Source: Clostridiales bacterium (GTDB taxonomy: Bacteria; Bacillota; Clostridia; Lachnospirales; Lachnospiraceae). Taken from it: DNA of 39,257 nucleotides. The notes under the pieces were generated by a model. It did not search any database. It was given only the letters and a program-made list of their open reading frames with translations, and was not told where the DNA came from. Positions 29,317 to 39,257 of this stretch are shown one piece after another (positions within the stretch are counted from its first letter, which is position 1; the number at the start of each line of letters is the position of its first letter). The stretch is from contig JAAYRC010000126.1 of assembly GCA_012518975.1 (NCBI GenBank), forward strand, positions 1 to 39,257. The letters are read 5' to 3'. The position numbers were made by a program, and so were the translations under genes.

Positions 29317-29363
29317 AGAGTGCACCCATATTTCTCTTTTCAAAAAAGATATTGGTGCACTCT
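29317..29363. terminator. Terminator between oadG and the biosynthetic cluster
   Basis: Outer stem AGAGTGCACC/GGTGCACTCT (10 bp) continues inward through a partly paired AT-rich arm. TTTATAC follows on the plus strand and TTATATTTTAG on the minus strand. It lies between convergent oadG and the methyltransferase gene and can end both transcripts. Confidence 0.75.
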
Positions 29364-29412: not shown

Positions 29413-30078
29413 CTACTTGCTGCAAATATAAGTTATCCAATTACCTTGTTTTTTTACATCAACTTCATTAAAACCAACTTCATTCATTAGTAGTTTAAAA
29501 TCCTCAGGATTACTATACATTGGAGTATAGTAATCTATCTTATCCATTTCACATGTTATTAGTAGCTTCCCACTATCGTCAAGTACTCTATATATTTCAC
29601 TCAAACCTTTTTTCAACTCATCCCAGTAGATATGGGTCTGCATAGCTGTAACAAGAGAAAAACTTTCAGAGTCATAGGGAAGGTCAGCAACATCTGCTAC
29701 CTCTAAAGCAACACGGCCTTCTTTTATATACTTCTTATTAACCTTAGTAGAAGTTTTGATTGCTTCCTTAGAAATATCTATGCCATAAACCTTAGATGTT
29801 TTATTTTGTCCTGCCATATATTTAATTGTGGCTCCTCCACCACAACCAACATCTAATATCATATCATAGTCCTCAAGCTTAATTTGTTCTAATCCCCAAG
29901 CATTCATATCATCAAAATAGTCATTCCATATGTAAGTCATAAATTTACCTACTATGCCGCTAGGGTTTTTTGCTTGACCTATTAAATAATTTACAATTTG
30001 ATTATAGAATATGATAAAACAGAATAATAATACAAGAACTATACCTAATAATATTTTTCCTATTCTTTTCTTCTTCAT
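29413..30078 (-). CDS. Membrane-anchored SAM-dependent methyltransferase
   Basis: A 221-residue class I methyltransferase of the UbiE/Methyltransf_11 kind. A single hydrophobic helix (about residues 8-27, after KKKRIGK) probably anchors it in the membrane with the catalytic domain in the cytoplasm. SAM-binding motif I is ILDVGCGGGATIKYM near residue 74, the acidic residue is in GIDIS, and post-I is VADVADLPYDSESF. The start lies 1 nt after the stop of the hydrolase-like gene, so it is the last gene of the NRPS cluster operon and ends at the shared terminator. The acceptor is unknown; the cluster product or a membrane lipid are both possible. Confidence 0.82.
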   Translation of the reverse strand: MKKKRIGKILLGIVLVLLFCFIIFYNQIVNYLIGQAKNPSGIVGKFMTYIWNDYFDDMNAWGLEQIKLEDYDMILDVGCGGGATIKYMAGQNKTSKVYGIDISKEAIKTSTKVNKKYIKEGRVALEVADVADLPYDSESFSLVTAMQTHIYWDELKKGLSEIYRVLDDSGKLLITCEMDKIDYYTPMYSNPEDFKLLMNEVGFNEVDVKKQGNWITYICSK

Positions 30079-30079
30079 A

Positions 30080-30895
30080 CTATTTCTTCCTTTCTATTTT
30101 TACTAATTGCGTTTTATCATAATCTGTATTTTGTAAAAAGGATAAGATGGTTTTATTGAAAACCTCTGCATTTGTTCTCGGTAGGTTCTGGTTAGCATTC
30201 TTTACCAAAAAGCCTATGCTGTTAGGAATCAACTTAGTAAGCTTTATAGTCGATTGAATATTGGCTTTTAAGTCCTCGGCCCCAACAATCACTAGCACAG
30301 GTAACTCAATTCTTTCTATTCCCTTTAAACTAATATCCTTGATGAGACCCTCAGTAATAAGTTCCACTAACTTCTCAGGATTATAATTAAACATGTCTTC
30401 CAAGTAATTACTCCTATATTCCTCACTTACTCCATAAGCTTTACATGCTGTGATCTGAAAGTCTGGATTTTGAAGCTTTGCATATTTTTTATTAAATTCA
30501 TTTAGAATGATTTTTTTTGGTAGAATCTTATGAAATAAGGCTTCTTTAACAGATTTAATCATAATACCCGATAAGATTGCCTTTTTGACCAGATCCTCAC
30601 GCTTGTTTAATAATGAAAGTACAATTCTTGCACCCATCTCATGTCCGATAAGAATAGCCTTTTTCTCTTTGGTGCTATTTTCTATAATTTCAATTATGCT
30701 ATTAACAGAGTTTTCTATGGTAAATCTGCCTTGGTTTAGATTTAGTCCATGCTCCTGCATATCAAGAAAAATACATCTGTATTCCTCCATAAAACACTTC
30801 TGCCCATACCACATCCAACTACTAACTCCACATGCATGTATGAATATTATTGTTTCCCCTTCTTTATTCCCCGATTCCTGGTATATTAACCCCAT
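30080..30895 (-). CDS. Alpha/beta-hydrolase-fold protein lacking catalytic Ser and His
   Basis: A 271-residue single-domain protein of the alpha/beta hydrolase superfamily, with IIFIHACG (oxyanion region), the nucleophile elbow at residues 84-88, a helical cap, and LVIVGAED with Asp208. The elbow reads GHEMG: Glu86 stands where Ser (or Asp, as in GHDMG epoxide hydrolases) is expected. The C-terminal NANQN has Gln236 at the catalytic His position. It may be a non-hydrolytic binding, cyclase or chaperone protein, or a pseudoenzyme. The ATG has GGAG nearby and overlaps the end of the MFS gene by 32 nt; the following methyltransferase starts 1 nt after the stop. It is not a clear type II thioesterase. 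Confidence 0.82.
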   Translation of the reverse strand: MGLIYQESGNKEGETIIFIHACGVSSWMWYGQKCFMEEYRCIFLDMQEHGLNLNQGRFTIENSVNSIIEIIENSTKEKKAILIGHEMGARIVLSLLNKREDLVKKAILSGIMIKSVKEALFHKILPKKIILNEFNKKYAKLQNPDFQITACKAYGVSEEYRSNYLEDMFNYNPEKLVELITEGLIKDISLKGIERIELPVLVIVGAEDLKANIQSTIKLTKLIPNSIGFLVKNANQNLPRTNAEVFNKTILSFLQNTDYDKTQLVKIERKK

Positions 30896-32135
30896 TAATC
30901 TCCACTCCTTTTTTGTATGTTACGCCATAATACACTGTAATAATAAATATTATGACTGCAGTTATAACAAACGGAATTGCAGGATTCATCCATTTGAAGA
31001 TAAGTCCATATATAAACTGCCCAATTGGAATTGATGACATAATTAATGCAAGTACTAATGAAGAGATTCTTCCTAGCATCTCAGGCTTAATTTCCTTTTG
31101 CAACTCTGATTGGAAGGAAATTGTTATATTTATAGAAGCAATACCCAATAACAAATACAATCCTAACATAAAATAGAATGCTAGTTTCGCAGATAGAAAT
31201 CCCATGCAAACTACAGAAATAGAAAAGAAGCAAATTGAAATTAATCCTAACATTCTTACAAATAATTTATCACTCGAAATTCCCTTTTGCATTAATCCAG
31301 AGAATAAAGCTCCTAATATTACACCAAAGACAACTACTACTTCAATCATTGCATATTCATTATTAGTTACATTAAAAACAGTTTTTGCCACAAATGGTAT
31401 ACCTACTGTTGTAGCACCATTAAAAAATGCATTTTGTATGAAAATACATACTATAATTTTTACTATCCGCTTTTCATTCCAGATATATTTGAAACCATCT
31501 ACTAAATCTGATTTAAATCGACCTAATGACTTTATCTTATCCTCTACAGCAAATTTATCTACTTTAATAAATAAATTAAATAGACCACCAATTAAAAAGC
31601 TAAGAGCATTAAAGATTAATGTCACCCTAATTCCTGCTGCAGTATATAAAATTGCACCAAGTATTGGTCCTATGATATTACCTAATGATGATACAATCAT
31701 ATTAATCGCGTTTCCAGATTGTAAGTTTTCCTTGCTTACAATTGAAGGCATTATTGCCATTGTCGTAGGCTCATCCATAGCATTAATAATTCCTAATAGC
31801 ATACATATAAATGCAATCATGGCAACTGATAGATCATTACCTACGGTCAATCCAATTAACAGTAGAATACCTCCACTAATTACATCCAGAAAAATTAAGA
31901 GCTTCTTTCGGTCAAACCAATCCACTAATACGCCGCATAAGGGACTAAGAATCACCTTAGGAATAAGAGTAGCCATTAATATAGAAGCAAATAGCATACT
32001 ATCTTGCGTTTTATCAATAACATATAGGGCAAATGCTGTGCTTTGAACAAAGGTTCCTATTAATGAAGTAAATTTTGAAATTAATAAAAATATAAAACTT
32101 TTATTTTTTAATACATTTGACTTTTCCTTTTCCAT
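30864..32135 (-). CDS. MFS exporter of the NRPS cluster
   Basis: A 423-residue major facilitator with about 12 membrane segments and the loop 2-3 signature GVLVDWFDRKK, closest in style to the MFS_3 group (macrolide-efflux/EntS-like drug and siderophore exporters). AAAGGG precedes the ATG. It lies 65 nt after the first methyltransferase gene and overlaps the hydrolase-like gene by 32 nt, so it belongs to the NRPS operon. Its likely job is export of the peptide product or self-protection; the substrate is inferred from position only. Confidence 0.88.
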   Translation of the reverse strand: MEKEKSNVLKNKSFIFLLISKFTSLIGTFVQSTAFALYVIDKTQDSMLFASILMATLIPKVILSPLCGVLVDWFDRKKLLIFLDVISGGILLLIGLTVGNDLSVAMIAFICMLLGIINAMDEPTTMAIMPSIVSKENLQSGNAINMIVSSLGNIIGPILGAILYTAAGIRVTLIFNALSFLIGGLFNLFIKVDKFAVEDKIKSLGRFKSDLVDGFKYIWNEKRIVKIIVCIFIQNAFFNGATTVGIPFVAKTVFNVTNNEYAMIEVVVVFGVILGALFSGLMQKGISSDKLFVRMLGLISICFFSISVVCMGFLSAKLAFYFMLGLYLLLGIASINITISFQSELQKEIKPEMLGRISSLVLALIMSSIPIGQFIYGLIFKWMNPAIPFVITAVIIFIITVYYGVTYKKGVEINGVNIPGIGE

Positions 32136-32200
32136 ATATCCCTTTCGTATGATTATTTATAATCAATATCATACATTCTCCTTTTCAATGTTTTTTCATA

Positions 32201-32695
32201 TTACTTGAGAAAAATATTAAAAGATTGCTTATTATGCAAAAAATCATATCGGTTAGCCAAAGCAAATCCACACTCTTGCATGATCTCATATATTCTTTTT
32301 TCATCTGTACAATGTCCTGTTCTACTCTCCTTGCTTCTTCCATTGTTGAGAAAATCAATCACCGCCACTCGTCCTCTTGGTTTAGTTGCACGATAAACAT
32401 TAGTAAAATAATCAAATGGCTCTAAAATATCATGAAAAGTATCTCTTAAAAAGAATAGATCAACTGACTCATCAGGTAACTGGAGATAGCCTCCACTGGC
32501 TAATACAGGACATATATTATTCACTTGCTTTCCACTTGCTTTTTTAATTACATAGTCTAAATATTTTTGCTCAACGTCTACAGCATAAACTAATCCTTTT
32601 TTTCCTACAGCTTCTGCAAATCGAAGAGAATAATAACCTCCACCAGAACCAATATCTGCTACTATATCGCCTTCTTTGAGTGATAACTTTTCCAT
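32201..32695 (-). CDS. SAM-dependent methyltransferase following the NRPS
   Basis: A class I methyltransferase, 164 residues from ATG 32695, with motif I VADIGSGGGYYSLRFAEAVG, the acidic AVDVE, and VDLFFLRDTFHDI. The ATG has no good ribosome-binding site. The frame is open for 26 more codons upstream, up to the NRPS TAA, which is in the same frame. Those codons read like the family's usual N-terminus (LNIQASSKKSRPDLI), so the real protein may be about 185-190 residues. No ATG, GTG or TTG exists there; ATC 9 nt after the NRPS-terminal AGGAGG, an ATT, stop-codon read-through, or a recent mutation are options. Substrate unknown, probably the NRPS product. Confidence 0.8.
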   Translation of the reverse strand: MEKLSLKEGDIVADIGSGGGYYSLRFAEAVGKKGLVYAVDVEQKYLDYVIKKASGKQVNNICPVLASGGYLQLPDESVDLFFLRDTFHDILEPFDYFTNVYRATKPRGRVAVIDFLNNGRSKESRTGHCTDEKRIYEIMQECGFALANRYDFLHNKQSFNIFLK

Positions 32696-32773
32696 GATGA
32701 GGTCAGGCCTACTTTTTTTTGAGGAAGCCTGTATATTTAAAACTTCAAGTAAAATCGATGTTAAGATACCACT

Positions 32774-35700
32774 TTACCTCCTTCCTTCTATAGTGAAAAA
32801 ACTCTTCATAATCCCATACTCAACCATATTGTAAATCTGCTTGGCTGAAACAGCCTTCCATTGAAAGTCCAGCTCCTTCAAAATACTATCAGTAAGTGCA
32901 CTTGATAAGATAAAATCTGTCTGGCTTTCGGATCTAGTGAAATTTGAGTGAATTAATAGCATATCTACTAATTCATTCACCTCTTGCCGGTCATAATCAC
33001 TTATTATTTCATCTAGAAACTGTCTATAATCTACTAAATCAATGTCATAACCATTTTCATCTAGTAAGTTATACAAGTCTATATAACTTATATTATTAGG
33101 ATTGAATACATGATAATTTTTGTTTTTCGATATACTTCTGTCGAAAAGTATTCTGATAGCTTTAGCTGTTTCATCAACGAAGGAGAATTCAAGCTCCTTA
33201 GAGTCAGAGGCAGGTATTTTGCCCAAACCTATCAAGGCTCTTATCCGTTGATAGAAGGCATTTCCCTCTATATTAATCTGGAAACGTCCTGTTTCAGATT
33301 GAAACACTAAATTACCAACGCGAATGATGGTGATATCCATACCTTCCTCACGTAATTTATTTAGATACTCCTCTGCTTCGAGCTTACTCCTAACATAGTT
33401 GTTCTCCACAATCTGACCTAAACTCATATCATACTCAGTGAAAAGCTGTACTGACCGTTTTTCTATTTCTCCACTTCCTATGCTAGTAGTAGAAATATGG
33501 GTAAGTAACTTTTTCTTTGATTGTCTGCAAAATTCAGCCAGGTTCTTAACAGAAAGTACATTGCTTATATAGAACTGCTCATATTCACCGAAATGTCTAA
33601 CATCAGCAGCCGCATTTATTACACACTCACACTGACTTGCTAGTTTTTTATATAATTTCTTATCAAGACCTAACCACTCTTTTGTGATGTCACAATTATA
33701 TATCTCTACTCTATCCCGATAATCTATTAGCGATTTATCAAAATAAAACTTGATTCTTTCAGAAACTTTTTTTGAAGCTTCTTCAACAGATTTTCCTCGA
33801 ATTAATAGATGCAGTTTATATTCGGTGTTTTCCAACAACTCTCTTAATATATGTGCACCTAAGTATCCGGTTCCACCACATAGAAGAACATCTTTAATAT
33901 CCTCTCTCTGATTTAAATCTGATCTTCTTATGACCTCTTTAATTTTTCTTTGATAAGCCTCTTTCTGTATCTTTATGTCTTGTGTAGCTTCTTTAATTAC
34001 ATTTTTTCTTTCTTTGTCCAAGTTACTGCGTATATTCCTTAGGACTGCTAATGAATCCTCCTTGCTTTTTGTTACTACTTTTGCCATCTCTGTAATGTAT
34101 GGGTTTTTTATAACTTGGGAATAGGAAAGTTCATATACTGACCTAATTCGCTGAATAAATCTCATTACATTTAATGAATTAGCGCCAAATTCAAAGATAT
34201 TATCCCTTACCCCTAATTGGTCTATACCTAGAATATTTGATAGTTCCTTTAATAGGAATTCTTCAGTAGGATTTTGAGGAGGATCGATCTTTCGTTTGAA
34301 TTCAACATTAATACTTGTAAGCTTCTGTACATCCACCTTACCATTATCCATCATTGGAATTTTCTCCATAGTTATAAAGATAGATGGTATCATGTACTCT
34401 GGAAGGTAATTGTGTAAGCTACTTCTAATCTCACTTTGACTCATCTCCTCACTACTCCATTCAAGGAATGCACAAAGGTATTGATTGTCTTCCTTATTCT
34501 TCAATAACACCTTGGCTTTTTTTACGCCATTAAGTTTTAGAAGTACCTCTTCAATTTCCCCAAGCTCTATTCGATAGCCACGTAACTTAACCTGATTATC
34601 TGCCCTGCCAATGAATTCAACCTTTCCATCCTTTGTCCATCTCACGCAGTCGCCAGTTTTATAAATTCTATCCCCTTTAACAAATGGGTTATCAATAAAA
34701 CGCTCCTTAGTAAGATCATCACGATTAAAATAATCTCTTCCTACTCCTTCACCTCCGATATACAGTTCCCCAGTAACCTTGGGGGGAACTGGAATTAAGA
34801 ATTCATCAAGAATATATATCTGTGTATTAGCAATTGCCCTACCGATGGTGATATTGCTCGGATCTATAATCTCCTCAACCATAGACCAAACAGTAGTCTC
34901 AGTTGGTCCATACATATTCATAAGACGAAGTCCTTGTATACTTTTTAGCTTTTCAGCCATGTGTGATGTGAGAGGTTCACCACCTATTAATGCCATTTTA
35001 AGAGTTTTTGCAGCCTCCTCAAATTTAGGATCACCAAGTAATATCCCCCACCTAGAAGGTGTACTTTGGACAATTTCTATCTTGTTATTATGAATTAACT
35101 CTGCTATCCGATTACCATCAATATCTTCATTCGCCGAAGTTAAAACTATCTTCATACCAAACATAAGTGGAACCAATGTCTCAAGTACAAATATGTCAAA
35201 TGACATTGTGGTAATACATAGAATTGTGTGATACCTATCCATATCTATCGCATTCTTCATAGCATATGCAAAATTAACTACATTACGATTTTCTATACGC
35301 ACACCCTTAGGTCTACCAGTTGAACCCGAAGTATAGATTACATAGGCTAATCTCTTTGCCGCTTCTATCTGAGGCTTCTCTTCATCTTCATTCACAAGTC
35401 TCACCTTTATCTTGATTTCTCCTGACGCTTCACCATCTAATATCAGATATTTTGAACAGCTATCATCAAGAATATAACTGATGCGATCATTTGGATAAGT
35501 TGGGTCGATTGGTAGATAAGCTGCACCAACATTTAGAACACCTAAAATCGCAGCTATCATCTTGAGTGATCGATTCATCTTAACAGCAACCAAGTCTTCT
35601 TCTTTAACCCCTGCTTCAATCAGTAATTCAGATATTTTGTTAACCTCATCTTTAAGTTCTCCATAACTTATAGATAAATCGTTAAAGACCAAGGCTTCTC

Positions 35701-38700
35701 TACAAGGATATTGATTCATAGTATCTTCTATACAGTCCATAATAGTTTTTTCCCTTGGATAATCAAGATAAGTGTCATTATATTGATGTAAAATAGCATG
35801 TATACTCTTTGCATCCATAAGGTTTATACTACTAAGGACTTGATCAGTATCCTCAACAATCTTATATAGTATGTTTTTCATATAAGTAGAATATTGTTGA
35901 ATGGTCTCCTTTTTAAATAAGGAGCTTGCATAACTAAAGCATAAGGCAATACCCTTGTTTTCCTGGGTTGCGGTTAAAGTAAGATCATATTTTTCAGTTT
36001 CCTGCTGTAATTTAACTGACGATAATTTAAGACTGGATGACCCCATATCCTCTATATGCATGTTCTGCATTATAAACATCACATCAAACAATGGACTTCT
36101 AGATTGATTAGTGCTTATGTTAAGATCATTAATAAGCTTATCAAACTGATAGGTCTGATTATCATATGCTCCCAGTATCTTTCCTCTAGTATATTCCAAA
36201 TATTCCCTATATGTGAGATTATAATCTATCTGTGCATGAATTGCAATAGAGTTAATAAACACACCAAATATTTTCTCAAGCTGTGGTATTGTTCTTCCAG
36301 CTATGGGGCTACCAACCACCAAATCCTTTTGCCCGCTAAGCTTTGATAACATAAGCGTAAAAGCTGATAACAATACCATATATAGTGTGGTATTTGTATC
36401 TCTAGAAAGCTCCATAAGCTTTTTTGTTAAAACTTCATCCAAGAAAATTGTTACTTCTGCCCCATAATAATCTTTAATAGCTGGTCTTTGGAAATCAGCT
36501 GGCAGGTTAAGTGCTGGAATATCCCCCTCAAACTCTTTAATCCAGTACTCTTTTTGACTCTGGACTACTTTAGTATCATTTCGTATACTCCATTCAGAAT
36601 AATCCTTATATTGGTAAATTGCCGGCTCTAGCTCTTTGCCATCATATATTTGTATAAATTCCTCTGAAAATAATCCCATGGATACACCGTCGGAAACAAT
36701 ATGATGCATATCGATAAAGAGATATTTTTTCTCTTCCATATTTAGAATTGCGGCCCGCATAAGGGGAGCTTTAGTTAAGTCGAAGGGCTTGACTATTTCT
36801 CTAGCAGCCTTTTCAATATTATTGTCGAAAACAGTAATATTTTCCAGGTCAAATTCTTTTGTTTGATGGATTCTCTGAACAATTTGCTCCTTGCAAATAT
36901 AAAAACTGGTTCTTAATGCCTCATGTCTTTTCATCATATCGATAAATACATTTTTTAATTTTTCTTCATCTAATAATCCCTGTATTTCGAAAAGCAATGG
37001 CATATTATAAGCTGTTGTATCTGGGTTGGCCTGGCATTCAATAAAGATTCTCCTTTGCTGAGAAGACACTTCATATTCATATTGAATGTCTGCTTTTCTA
37101 AACTCAATATTATTAACTAAGCCCCTACTTTGAATGAGATTAGCCAATCCCTTAACTGTCGGATTTGTAAACAAATCCTTTAAGGAAATTTTAAATCCCA
37201 GCTCTTTCGCTACCCTACCCAACATAAATGTTGCATTCAGTGAATGTCCTCCAAGTTCAAAGAAATTGTTCTCCGTTCCAATCCTTGAAATAGATAATAC
37301 TTCCTTCCACATATGCAATAAGCTTTCTTCAATGTCATTTGCCGGTTCAATATAATCAATACCTGTATGGATATCGCCTTTTGGTTCAGGAAGTGCCTTA
37401 CGATTAACCTTGCCATTTGCCGTTAGTGGAATTTTTTCTAATTTTACAAAATAGCTTGGGATCATATAGGCTGGCAAAAACTTAAGTAGGTGCTCTCTAA
37501 GCTCATGTACATCGTATTCATCATCAGCAACATAATAAGCACAAAGAAATTGTCCGTCCTGACGCTCCTTCATAACTACAATTGCATCAGTTATATTTGA
37601 GTACTGTAGCAGATTAAGCTGTATTTCTTCTAGCTCGATTCTGTGGCCACGAAGTTTTACCTGAAAATCTAGTCTACCAAGAAACTCTATATACCCATGT
37701 GAAGTGAATACTCCCTTGTCACCCGTACGATAGATTCTTCCAAACTTATGATGATCGATAAAGCTGTAATTAGTCTTTTCTGGATCATTGATATATCCTT
37801 TAGCCACACCTACACCACCGATACAGATTTCACCAGGAACTCCTATCGGCTGTTGATTAAATCCTTCATCTAAAACATACATCTTTTGGTTGGCTAGAGG
37901 ATAACCATAAGGAATTGATGTCCATTCCTTATTTACTTTGTCAATAGGGTAATAAATAGACCATATTGACCCCTCTGTAGCACCTCCTAGGCTGGTTATA
38001 TCCGCCATAGGAAAAGCTTTACGGATTTTATCCGGTAAACTTAAGGGTATCCAATCCCCGCTTAAAAGTACATTCTTCAGGTGATAATTCTGATATCCCC
38101 TTTCTAAACTATTACAGAGCATATCCATGAATGCAGGAACCGAGTTCCACAAAGTTATACAATGAGTGTCTAATAGATATGATAGTTCATCCATGTTTTT
38201 AGAATCACTAGATATCACTACTTTTGCACCACTTGATAATGCTCCAAACACATCGTAAACAGATAAGTCAAAACCTATGGAGGAAACCATCAAAATCGAA
38301 TCTGTTTCACTAACCTGAAAACGCTGATTGATATCAAGAATTGTATTTATACATGCTTGATGCGTAATAATTACACCCTTTGGAACTCCAGTACTTCCAG
38401 AGGTAAATATAATATAAGCAATATCTTCAGGTTCATTTATAGTGTCTGGATTCTTGTGACATTTTCCTCGCATAAATCCTTCATTAATAATGACTACTTC
38501 GATATCTACAAGCTTTTCCAGCAACTCCTCATCAGTTAGTATTAACTTTAGCTCACCGGCTTTTACTATGTTTTTTATTCTTTCAATTGGGTAATCTACC
38601 TCAATAGGAACATAAGCTGCTCCAACTTTAAGAATTGCTACAATTCCTATAATTAAGTCTACAGATCGCTGTATTTTTATTCCTACGTGACTATGCCTTC

Positions 38701-39257
38701 CAATTCCTCTCTTTTGCAAGATTTCTGCCAGATGATTTGCCCTCTCATTTAACTGCTGATAGCTAAGTTCCTCTCCATTAGCAACAACTGCTATTAGGTC
38801 TGGGGTTTTTTGTACCTGGTCTTCAATTAATACTTTAAGTGATTTTTTCATTTGCAACATACAATCACTATTGTTATAATTTTCGTTTATTAGAGTCTTT
38901 TCATCCTCAGTAATTAGTTCAATATCCTTCACGCAAATATCTGTATTTTCTAAAATTGTATTAAGTATTTTTTGATAATGCAGTGTCATTCTTTGTATCG
39001 TTTCAGCCTTAAAAAGTGAAGTTGCATATCCGAAACTTATCTGAATATTTTCTTCGCTTTCATAACACTCGATAGTCATATCAAACTTTTCTATTGAATA
39101 GGTGGAAGAATATTTTTCAATATTAAGCCCTTCAGCCTTAAATTCACCCTCTTTATTATTTTGAAGTAAAAACATGACGTCAAAGATTGCATTCCGATCA
39201 GTCCTACGGGGAATATTTAGCTTTTCCACCAAGGATTCGAAAGGATACTCTTGATTA
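32774..39257 (-). CDS. Nonribosomal peptide synthetase C-A(Cys)-T-C-A(Gly)-T-reductase, N-terminus off window
   Basis: Visible are 2160 residues, open at the right edge. Order, numbered from the edge: end of a condensation domain (1-105, YPFESLVEKL); A1 (about 115-610, SGSTGVPKG at 286); T1 with phosphopantetheine Ser672 (GGHSL); C2 with HHIVSDG at 851; A2 (about 1150-1640, SGSTGRPKG at 1310); T2 with Ser1694 (GANSL); a thioester-reductase domain with NADPH motif GGTGYLG at 1794 and Tyr1954/Lys1958. Pocket residues read by eye give DLYNLSLIWK for A1 (cysteine) and DILQLGMVWK for A2 (glycine). The preceding C domain looks like an ordinary condensation domain, not heterocyclising. Release should be reductive, giving an aldehyde or alcohol. 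No MbtH or phosphopantetheinyl transferase is in view. Confidence 0.95.
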   Translation of the reverse strand, partial: NQEYPFESLVEKLNIPRRTDRNAIFDVMFLLQNNKEGEFKAEGLNIEKYSSTYSIEKFDMTIECYESEENIQISFGYATSLFKAETIQRMTLHYQKILNTILENTDICVKDIELITEDEKTLINENYNNSDCMLQMKKSLKVLIEDQVQKTPDLIAVVANGEELSYQQLNERANHLAEILQKRGIGRHSHVGIKIQRSVDLIIGIVAILKVGAAYVPIEVDYPIERIKNIVKAGELKLILTDEELLEKLVDIEVVIINEGFMRGKCHKNPDTINEPEDIAYIIFTSGSTGVPKGVIITHQACINTILDINQRFQVSETDSILMVSSIGFDLSVYDVFGALSSGAKVVISSDSKNMDELSYLLDTHCITLWNSVPAFMDMLCNSLERGYQNYHLKNVLLSGDWIPLSLPDKIRKAFPMADITSLGGATEGSIWSIYYPIDKVNKEWTSIPYGYPLANQKMYVLDEGFNQQPIGVPGEICIGGVGVAKGYINDPEKTNYSFIDHHKFGRIYRTGDKGVFTSHGYIEFLGRLDFQVKLRGHRIELEEIQLNLLQYSNITDAIVVMKERQDGQFLCAYYVADDEYDVHELREHLLKFLPAYMIPSYFVKLEKIPLTANGKVNRKALPEPKGDIHTGIDYIEPANDIEESLLHMWKEVLSISRIGTENNFFELGGHSLNATFMLGRVAKELGFKISLKDLFTNPTVKGLANLIQSRGLVNNIEFRKADIQYEYEVSSQQRRIFIECQANPDTTAYNMPLLFEIQGLLDEEKLKNVFIDMMKRHEALRTSFYICKEQIVQRIHQTKEFDLENITVFDNNIEKAAREIVKPFDLTKAPLMRAAILNMEEKKYLFIDMHHIVSDGVSMGLFSEEFIQIYDGKELEPAIYQYKDYSEWSIRNDTKVVQSQKEYWIKEFEGDIPALNLPADFQRPAIKDYYGAEVTIFLDEVLTKKLMELSRDTNTTLYMVLLSAFTLMLSKLSGQKDLVVGSPIAGRTIPQLEKIFGVFINSIAIHAQIDYNLTYREYLEYTRGKILGAYDNQTYQFDKLINDLNISTNQSRSPLFDVMFIMQNMHIEDMGSSSLKLSSVKLQQETEKYDLTLTATQENKGIALCFSYASSLFKKETIQQYSTYMKNILYKIVEDTDQVLSSINLMDAKSIHAILHQYNDTYLDYPREKTIMDCIEDTMNQYPCREALVFNDLSISYGELKDEVNKISELLIEAGVKEEDLVAVKMNRSLKMIAAILGVLNVGAAYLPIDPTYPNDRISYILDDSCSKYLILDGEASGEIKIKVRLVNEDEEKPQIEAAKRLAYVIYTSGSTGRPKGVRIENRNVVNFAYAMKNAIDMDRYHTILCITTMSFDIFVLETLVPLMFGMKIVLTSANEDIDGNRIAELIHNNKIEIVQSTPSRWGILLGDPKFEEAAKTLKMALIGGEPLTSHMAEKLKSIQGLRLMNMYGPTETTVWSMVEEIIDPSNITIGRAIANTQIYILDEFLIPVPPKVTGELYIGGEGVGRDYFNRDDLTKERFIDNPFVKGDRIYKTGDCVRWTKDGKVEFIGRADNQVKLRGYRIELGEIEEVLLKLNGVKKAKVLLKNKEDNQYLCAFLEWSSEEMSQSEIRSSLHNYLPEYMIPSIFITMEKIPMMDNGKVDVQKLTSINVEFKRKIDPPQNPTEEFLLKELSNILGIDQLGVRDNIFEFGANSLNVMRFIQRIRSVYELSYSQVIKNPYITEMAKVVTKSKEDSLAVLRNIRSNLDKERKNVIKEATQDIKIQKEAYQRKIKEVIRRSDLNQREDIKDVLLCGGTGYLGAHILRELLENTEYKLHLLIRGKSVEEASKKVSERIKFYFDKSLIDYRDRVEIYNCDITKEWLGLDKKLYKKLASQCECVINAAADVRHFGEYEQFYISNVLSVKNLAEFCRQSKKKLLTHISTTSIGSGEIEKRSVQLFTEYDMSLGQIVENNYVRSKLEAEEYLNKLREEGMDITIIRVGNLVFQSETGRFQINIEGNAFYQRIRALIGLGKIPASDSKELEFSFVDETAKAIRILFDRSISKNKNYHVFNPNNISYIDLYNLLDENGYDIDLVDYRQFLDEIISDYDRQEVNELVDMLLIHSNFTRSESQTDFILSSALTDSILKELDFQWKAVSAKQIYNMVEYGIMKSFFTIEGRR

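Follow-up and report, generated by a model that had tools for sequence, protein, structure and literature searches.

Mutanobactins are macrocyclic lipopeptides from the tooth-decay bacterium Streptococcus mutans, and some of them contain a thiazepanone. They are described in PMC8210680 as products that are released by a reductase as aldehydes, undergo an aldol macrocyclization, and carry a thiazepane ring closed by a cysteine thiol. In the mutanobactin (mub, TnSmu2) cluster, a permease gene and then an alpha/beta-hydrolase gene follow the terminal nonribosomal peptide synthetase (NRPS) gene, as listed in PMC8112672 (Table 2). Here we analyzed a DNA stretch of 39257 bases from a Lachnospiraceae bacterium (GenBank assembly GCA_012518975.1, contig JAAYRC010000126.1; hereafter the window). 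According to its list of open reading frames (ORFs), five collinear genes on the minus strand at 29413–39256 encode an NRPS, methyltransferase 1, a major facilitator superfamily (MFS) exporter, an alpha/beta-hydrolase-fold protein, and methyltransferase 2. We hold with moderate confidence that the window contains the 3' part of a cluster related to mub, with ring closure by an aldehyde as in mutanobactins. We regard the cluster as a variant related to that of the mutanobactins, with additional methyltransferases; production of a mutanobactin-like compound is likely, although neither this nor production of mutanobactin itself is proven.

Relationship to the mutanobactin cluster

A match to the window NRPS was present in 19 of 284 Streptococcus genomes, and the best one (35% identity, 788 bits) was in genome G884. 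Seven ORFs around this match were equal in length to SMU_1345c, 1344c, 1343c, 1338c, 1337c, 1336, and 1334 in Table 2 of PMC8112672; the lengths of 1340 and 1346 differed from the published values by 3 bases, that of 1335c by 9 bases, and that of 1339, taking the earliest start, by 69 bases. Genome G884 contains the S. mutans mub cluster. Its last two modules are predicted from their codes to be specific for Cys (DLYNLSAIWK) and Gly (DILQVGLVWK) and are followed by a reductase, a permease, and an alpha/beta-hydrolase. The window has the same series in the same order: Cys, Gly, terminal reductase, MFS permease, and alpha/beta-hydrolase. It differs from mub in that the methyltransferase 1 gene lies between the NRPS and MFS genes, and in that the Cys and Gly modules are on one protein in the window and on two in mub. 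The terminal condensation–adenylation–carrier–reductase (C-A-T-R) region showed 33% identity with that of mub (742 bits). In the mub locus of G884 (L206, G884:C1:777000-796900), there was a stop codon within the largest NRPS gene. Three other Streptococcus genomes (G911, G793, and G906) had a 28% match across most of the terminal module, and the two of these that were inspected had another A-domain code and neither an MFS protein nor a hydrolase of the mub type.

The two side proteins pointed to mub. The window MFS protein showed 45% identity over 402 amino acids with the mub permease, whereas the best other match among family genomes (60 of 200 had one, including the window's own) was 31% identical. 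In a tree of seven rows, the window and mub MFS proteins were a sister pair (100/100). The window hydrolase showed 43% identity over 246 amino acids with the mub hydrolase; matches were found in 11 of 391 genomes of the class, including its own, with 32% identity for the best other, and in 23 of the 261 genomes from the order to which Streptococcus belongs, where the best reached 28% among the 6 places examined of 24 listed. The hydrolases of the window and mub were again sisters (100/100) in a tree of 15 rows, one of them long. From these comparisons, kinship of both proteins with their mub counterparts is close to certain.

The earlier note on this DNA had called the hydrolase degenerate, and the alignment bore this out, as the nucleophilic Ser and the catalytic His are missing at the aligned places. 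Both residues were retained in all 16 other homologues examined (10 and then 6 more). Among the homologues examined, only the window and mub hydrolases have Glu in place of the elbow Ser (GHEMGAR) and Gln or Asp in place of the His; the two also agree in an HACG sequence in the oxyanion loop and in a conserved segment that follows the elbow. Because 43% identity persists between Bacilli and Clostridia, a retained function other than Ser-dependent hydrolysis is suggested. Both hydrolases may thus have a conserved non-hydrolytic role, perhaps in cyclizing the Cys-Gly aldehyde. Closure of the mutanobactin macrocycle by acid in the laboratory is described in PMC11763372, so that spontaneous ring closure is also conceivable. 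Scanning IMG/VR with both hydrolases gave 36 stretches with no relative among them, and a plasmid scan gave 7 records, the best at 30%.

Several observations weigh against the relationship with mub. Among the loci compared in this analysis, which are not all public sequences, the corresponding mub domain ranked only 10th for A1, 17th for A2, 99th for C2 (another mub C domain was 87th), 82nd for the partial C domain, 148th for T1, 61st for T2, and 7th for R (5th without repeats). In a tree of the window R domain and the 26 best-scoring other reductases, which included no characterized aldehyde-forming NRPS, the window and mub R domains were in one clade of 14 rows (100/99), apart from 13 rows all of Lachnospiraceae, but they were not sisters within it. 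This clade also contained seven other Lachnospiraceae rows, and the closest rows by path were an uncultured Clostridia bin and Pelosinus. When four divergent rows were added to the MFS tree, the pair of window and mub was unresolved beside a Bacillus branch (94/94). Furthermore, the two methyltransferases of the window have no counterpart in the mub gene order, and the acyltransferase, enoyl reductase, and phosphopantetheinyl transferase genes at the 3' end of mub are not found 3' of the window hydrolase. An acyl-loading or polyketide synthase (PKS) module of the mub type was not seen on the contigs of the same assembly (G000) that were read, namely C95, C181, and the first 12 kb of C165. Either the S. 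mutans modules have evolved fast, or unlike NRPS backbones now have the same finishing pair; both explanations link the MFS protein and the hydrolase to a Cys-Gly-aldehyde end.

Elsewhere in G000, ORFs with AMP-binding domains were on C181, C95, and C36, and ketosynthase (KS) genes on C234, C95, and C165; the KS genes of C95 and C165 belong to kinds other than that of mub. Placement of the 5' part of the NRPS on another contig of the assembly was considered and rejected: there was no further Condensation domain in G000, where the two matches in total were both on the window contig, and the contigs read were not mub-like. One of them carries, from the contig edge, a PKS-like cluster (L231, G000:C95:1-14071) with genes for a ketoreductase protein, KS and AfsA hotdog domains, an AMP-ligase, a short-chain dehydrogenase/reductase-like protein, and ATP-binding cassette proteins. 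Another (L232, G000:C165:3-3109) has acyltransferase, nitronate-monooxygenase-like (possibly enoyl reductase), and carrier genes and then a KS fragment of 192 amino acids, and looks like a partial fatty acid or PKS operon. As a separate observation, the window NRPS had 98 matches in an uncultured Clostridia bin (G477, 4.7 Mb; L113, L180, L187, and L188), a genome unusually rich in NRPSs.

NRPS domains and candidate products

Pfam (E ≤ 0.001) identified two AMP-binding, two Condensation (one of them partial), two PP-binding, and one NAD_binding_4 stretch in the window NRPS and listed no thioesterase, in agreement with the earlier proposal that a reductase takes the place of a thioesterase at its end. 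In the R fragment, S150/T151, Y182, and K186 were invariant in nine aligned reductases, and the GGTGYLG motif was also present. The earlier Cys-Gly prediction agrees with the codes of A1 and A2 (Table 1), which were obtained by alignment; for the code positions and the code-to-residue table we relied on what we take to be the established assignments. The predictions are supported by the near-identical codes that occur in the same order in mub. The best PDB match of A1 was linear gramicidin synthase and the next best was the bacillamide NRPS BmdB, which supports the Cys prediction. For the whole NRPS, the best PDB matches were LgrA, and the reductase of AusA was among the PDB matches.

No heterocyclization (Cy) domain was seen ahead of A1: the partial domain was matched by the Condensation model, and its motifs (Table 1) resemble those of an ordinary C domain rather than a Cy domain. 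An alignment scan with the Cys A domain kept 78 loci of at least 548 relatives, and by motif the upstream domain of these was scored as Cy in 39, C in 8, and undecided in 31. A thiazoline model was considered and rejected: A1 belongs to a group of A domains that frequently have Cy domains as partners, but the flanking domains here are C type. Since both domains flanking A1 read as C type, a free Cys thiol is expected, and the presence of a condensation domain ahead of the Cys module makes it improbable that the product begins with Cys.

In the pathway that we propose, the assembly line upstream of the contig end would pass the growing chain to the Cys module and then to the Gly module, and the reductase domain would free a peptide ending in Cys-glycinal with its thiol free, there being no Cy domain in the available part. 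The aldehyde would then undergo ring closure with an upstream carbon nucleophile, as in mutanobactin biosynthesis, and the Cys thiol would form a seven-membered ring of the thiazepane type. One or both methyltransferases may methylate the product and the MFS protein may export it, while the hydrolase-fold protein may help the cyclization or shield the reactive aldehyde.

The best of the alternatives, which we regard as rather unlikely, is an uncyclized protease inhibitor, namely a linear peptide aldehyde that is N-acylated or longer and resembles ruminopeptin, with the hydrolase-fold protein only binding or protecting the aldehyde. The presence of the R-domain residues and the failure to see a mub-type PKS on the contigs read are in its favor; gut NRPSs make dipeptide aldehydes, some of them perhaps stabilized by an N-acyl tail, according to PMC12327764 and PMC8210680. 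However, the kinship of the MFS protein and hydrolase indicates mub, several of the domains that the partial C domain matches best lie within a long elongation NRPS (L102), and the thiol of a Cys-glycinal would be expected to attack its own aldehyde.

Linear gramicidin synthetase has a Gly module followed by a reductase and gives a C-terminal ethanolamine, and its product is not known to contain Cys. The window resembles it in having a Gly module before the terminal reductase and in its LgrA matches, but differs in its predicted Cys, and no aldo-keto reductase gene was found among its five genes, which makes further reduction of the aldehyde to an ethanolamine improbable. A lugdunin-like thiazolidine macrocycle, formed from the aldehyde and Cys, is less probable still, although the window NRPS has both a predicted Cys module and a terminal R domain: in lugdunin, a single Cys attacks the aldehyde through both its amine and its thiol (PMC8210680), whereas the predicted Cys of the window is penultimate and its amine would be within a peptide bond.

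NRPSs of the AusA type are dimodular (A-T-C-A-T-R) with a free N-terminal amine. AusA and the gut dipeptide-aldehyde NRPSs such as that for ruminopeptin have a terminal thioester reductase in common with the window NRPS but differ in that the latter has a C domain preceding the earliest visible module and other predicted residues. Closure of a dipeptide Cys-Gly aldehyde to a pyrazinone in the style of aureusimine was set aside as very improbable, because, even though the best-scoring NCBIfam profile was that of the aureusimine NRPS AusA (1573 bits, below its cut-off of 2500), the C domain upstream of the Cys module makes an N-terminal Cys unlikely and the MFS protein and hydrolase indicate another system. 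The earlier suggestion that gut peptide aldehydes and pyrazinones are the nearest model was less well supported owing to this C domain.

Locus organization and distribution

The window is an entire contig (G000:C250) of a 2.1-Mb assembly that comprises 267 contigs and is 78% complete. The earlier note had proposed extending the sequence past position 39257; this position proved to be the contig end, so that the 5' part of the NRPS is cut away, and no upstream NRPS sequence was recovered. The intergenic distances are 78 bases between the NRPS and methyltransferase 1, 65 between methyltransferase 1 and the MFS protein, −32 between the MFS protein and the hydrolase, and 1 between the hydrolase and methyltransferase 2. 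Pfam (E ≤ 0.001) assigned the four side proteins, in order, to Methyltransf_11, MFS_1, Abhydrolase_1, and Methyltransf_11. Downstream of the hydrolase are methyltransferase 2, a terminator-like hairpin (−25.8 kcal/mol, z = −5.65, with none of 200 shuffles equally good), and a converging decarboxylase operon. The ORFs, Pfam domains, and hairpin uphold the claim of a five-gene collinear operon closed by a terminator, and an uncharacterized clostridial (Lachnospiraceae) NRPS operon with reductive release is likewise supported. For the methyltransferase 2 protein, which had been called membrane-anchored, the methyltransferase domain was found, and the N-terminal hydrophobic segment was seen by eye only. 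Before its ATG, the frame of methyltransferase 1 stays open back to a stop codon near an AGGAGG-like site and contains no ATG, GTG, or TTG (window 32696–32773); this may reflect a rare start codon, an internal start, or a sequence error.

Table 1. Coordinates of the features of the NRPS operon in the window.
Feature	Position	Strand	Remarks
NRPS, C(partial)-A(Cys)-T-C-A(Gly)-T-R	32774..39256	-	2160 aa, open at contig end
Partial condensation domain, C-terminal 130 residues	38867..39256	-	NQEYPFE and RRTDRNAIF motifs
A1, predicted Cys	37337..38851	-	Code DLYNLSLIWK; 51% identity over 484 aa to mub Cys A domain
T1 carrier domain	37112..37336	-	LGGHSL, Ser present
C2 condensation domain	35792..37111	-	HHIVSDG motif present
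A2, predicted Gly	34292..35791	-	Code DILQIGMVWK; 39% identity to mub Gly A domain
T2 carrier domain	34052..34291	-	FGANSL, Ser present
R, thioester reductase (NAD_binding_4)	32777..33946	-	GGTGYLG and Thr/Tyr/Lys residues present
Methyltransferase 1, class I S-adenosylmethionine (SAM)-dependent	32201..32695	-	164 aa from ATG; start uncertain
MFS exporter	30864..32135	-	Pfam MFS_1; 45% identical to mub permease
Alpha/beta-hydrolase-fold protein	30080..30895	-	Nucleophile Ser to Glu (GHEMG), His to Gln; 43% identical to mub hydrolase
SAM methyltransferase 2	29413..30078	-	N-terminal hydrophobic segment, read by eye
Terminator-like hairpin	29317..29363		Between the converging cluster and decarboxylase operon

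In 26 of 29 loci of the genus, the decarboxylase gene has a pyrophosphatase gene next to it. In eight relatives, none of the cluster genes was found in the region past the decarboxylase gene, and in seven of the eight an ORF of 579–592 residues was present there. Absence from these relatives suggested that the cluster is likely an acquired block. The G+C content was 31.7–32.9% over the side genes, compared with 36.6–36.9% just before them, which is a weak sign of transfer because values of 32.7–32.9% also occur at 4–6 and 12–14 kb.

No orthologue of the whole cluster was found in the searches made. The earlier statement that the tailoring set matched no known product is corrected by the match to mub in the MFS protein, the hydrolase, and the Cys-Gly-reductase order. 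A scan of 84,980 species with R-domain peptides gave 29 stretches with no relative among them, a search with exact peptides by which only close relatives are detectable. R-domain matches were present in 41 of 397 family genomes, including its own, and the best other was 35% identical; a match in Pelosinus reached 44%. Beside the 78 Cys-A loci, with neighbor genes scored at E ≤ 1e-6, neither the hydrolase nor methyltransferase 1 was found, and an MFS protein at about 25% identity was present in 3, a methyltransferase 2-like gene in 4, and an R domain in 8. In 20 other NRPS neighborhoods and 8 syntenic sites (E ≤ 1e-8), the hydrolase, the MFS protein, and methyltransferase 1 were found in none of the 28 and a methyltransferase 2-like gene in one. 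Among the papers listed in literature searches, no title or opening of an abstract named a mutanobactin-like cluster outside Streptococcus, which does not prove that none has been published.

Heterocyclizing NRPSs with several Cys modules (poly-Cys) in Lacrimispora, Hungatella, and Dorea phocaeensis have the same Cys code as the window and a reductase in the same clade of 14 rows, and some have a SAM methyltransferase downstream, as in the window. They differ in having their own Cy domains, two to three Cys in a row, and other side genes, and no mub-type MFS protein or hydrolase was found beside them. Clostridial clusters of this kind recur (L093 in G080, L141, L144, L147, L149, L162, and L084), with Cy domains, two to three Cys where whole, and a terminal reductase; several also carry methyltransferase, U32-peptidase-like, aminotransferase, and type II thioesterase genes, as labeled by eye. 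Their predicted products are poly-thiazoline aldehydes or amines.

Possible meaning of the proposed finishing pair

We tentatively suggest, as an idea less likely than the relationship with mub itself, that the MFS protein and the dead hydrolase are a portable finishing cassette for Cys-Gly-aldehyde peptides. Through loss of its hydrolytic residues, in whose place it has the conserved HACG and GHEMGAR sequences, the alpha/beta-hydrolase fold would have been turned into a cyclase directing the aldol and thiazepane closures that are reported as non-enzymatic. NRPS backbones of two different kinds, one in Streptococcus and the other in Lachnospiraceae, would have acquired this pair, with methylation as an addition in Lachnospiraceae. 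Comparison with this second, distant copy of the mub hydrolase reveals the common loss of catalytic residues and makes the spontaneity of mutanobactin cyclization testable. With the relationship to mub, an orphan cluster gains a concrete chemical hypothesis: a sulfur-containing, perhaps methylated relative of the mutanobactins from an anaerobe.

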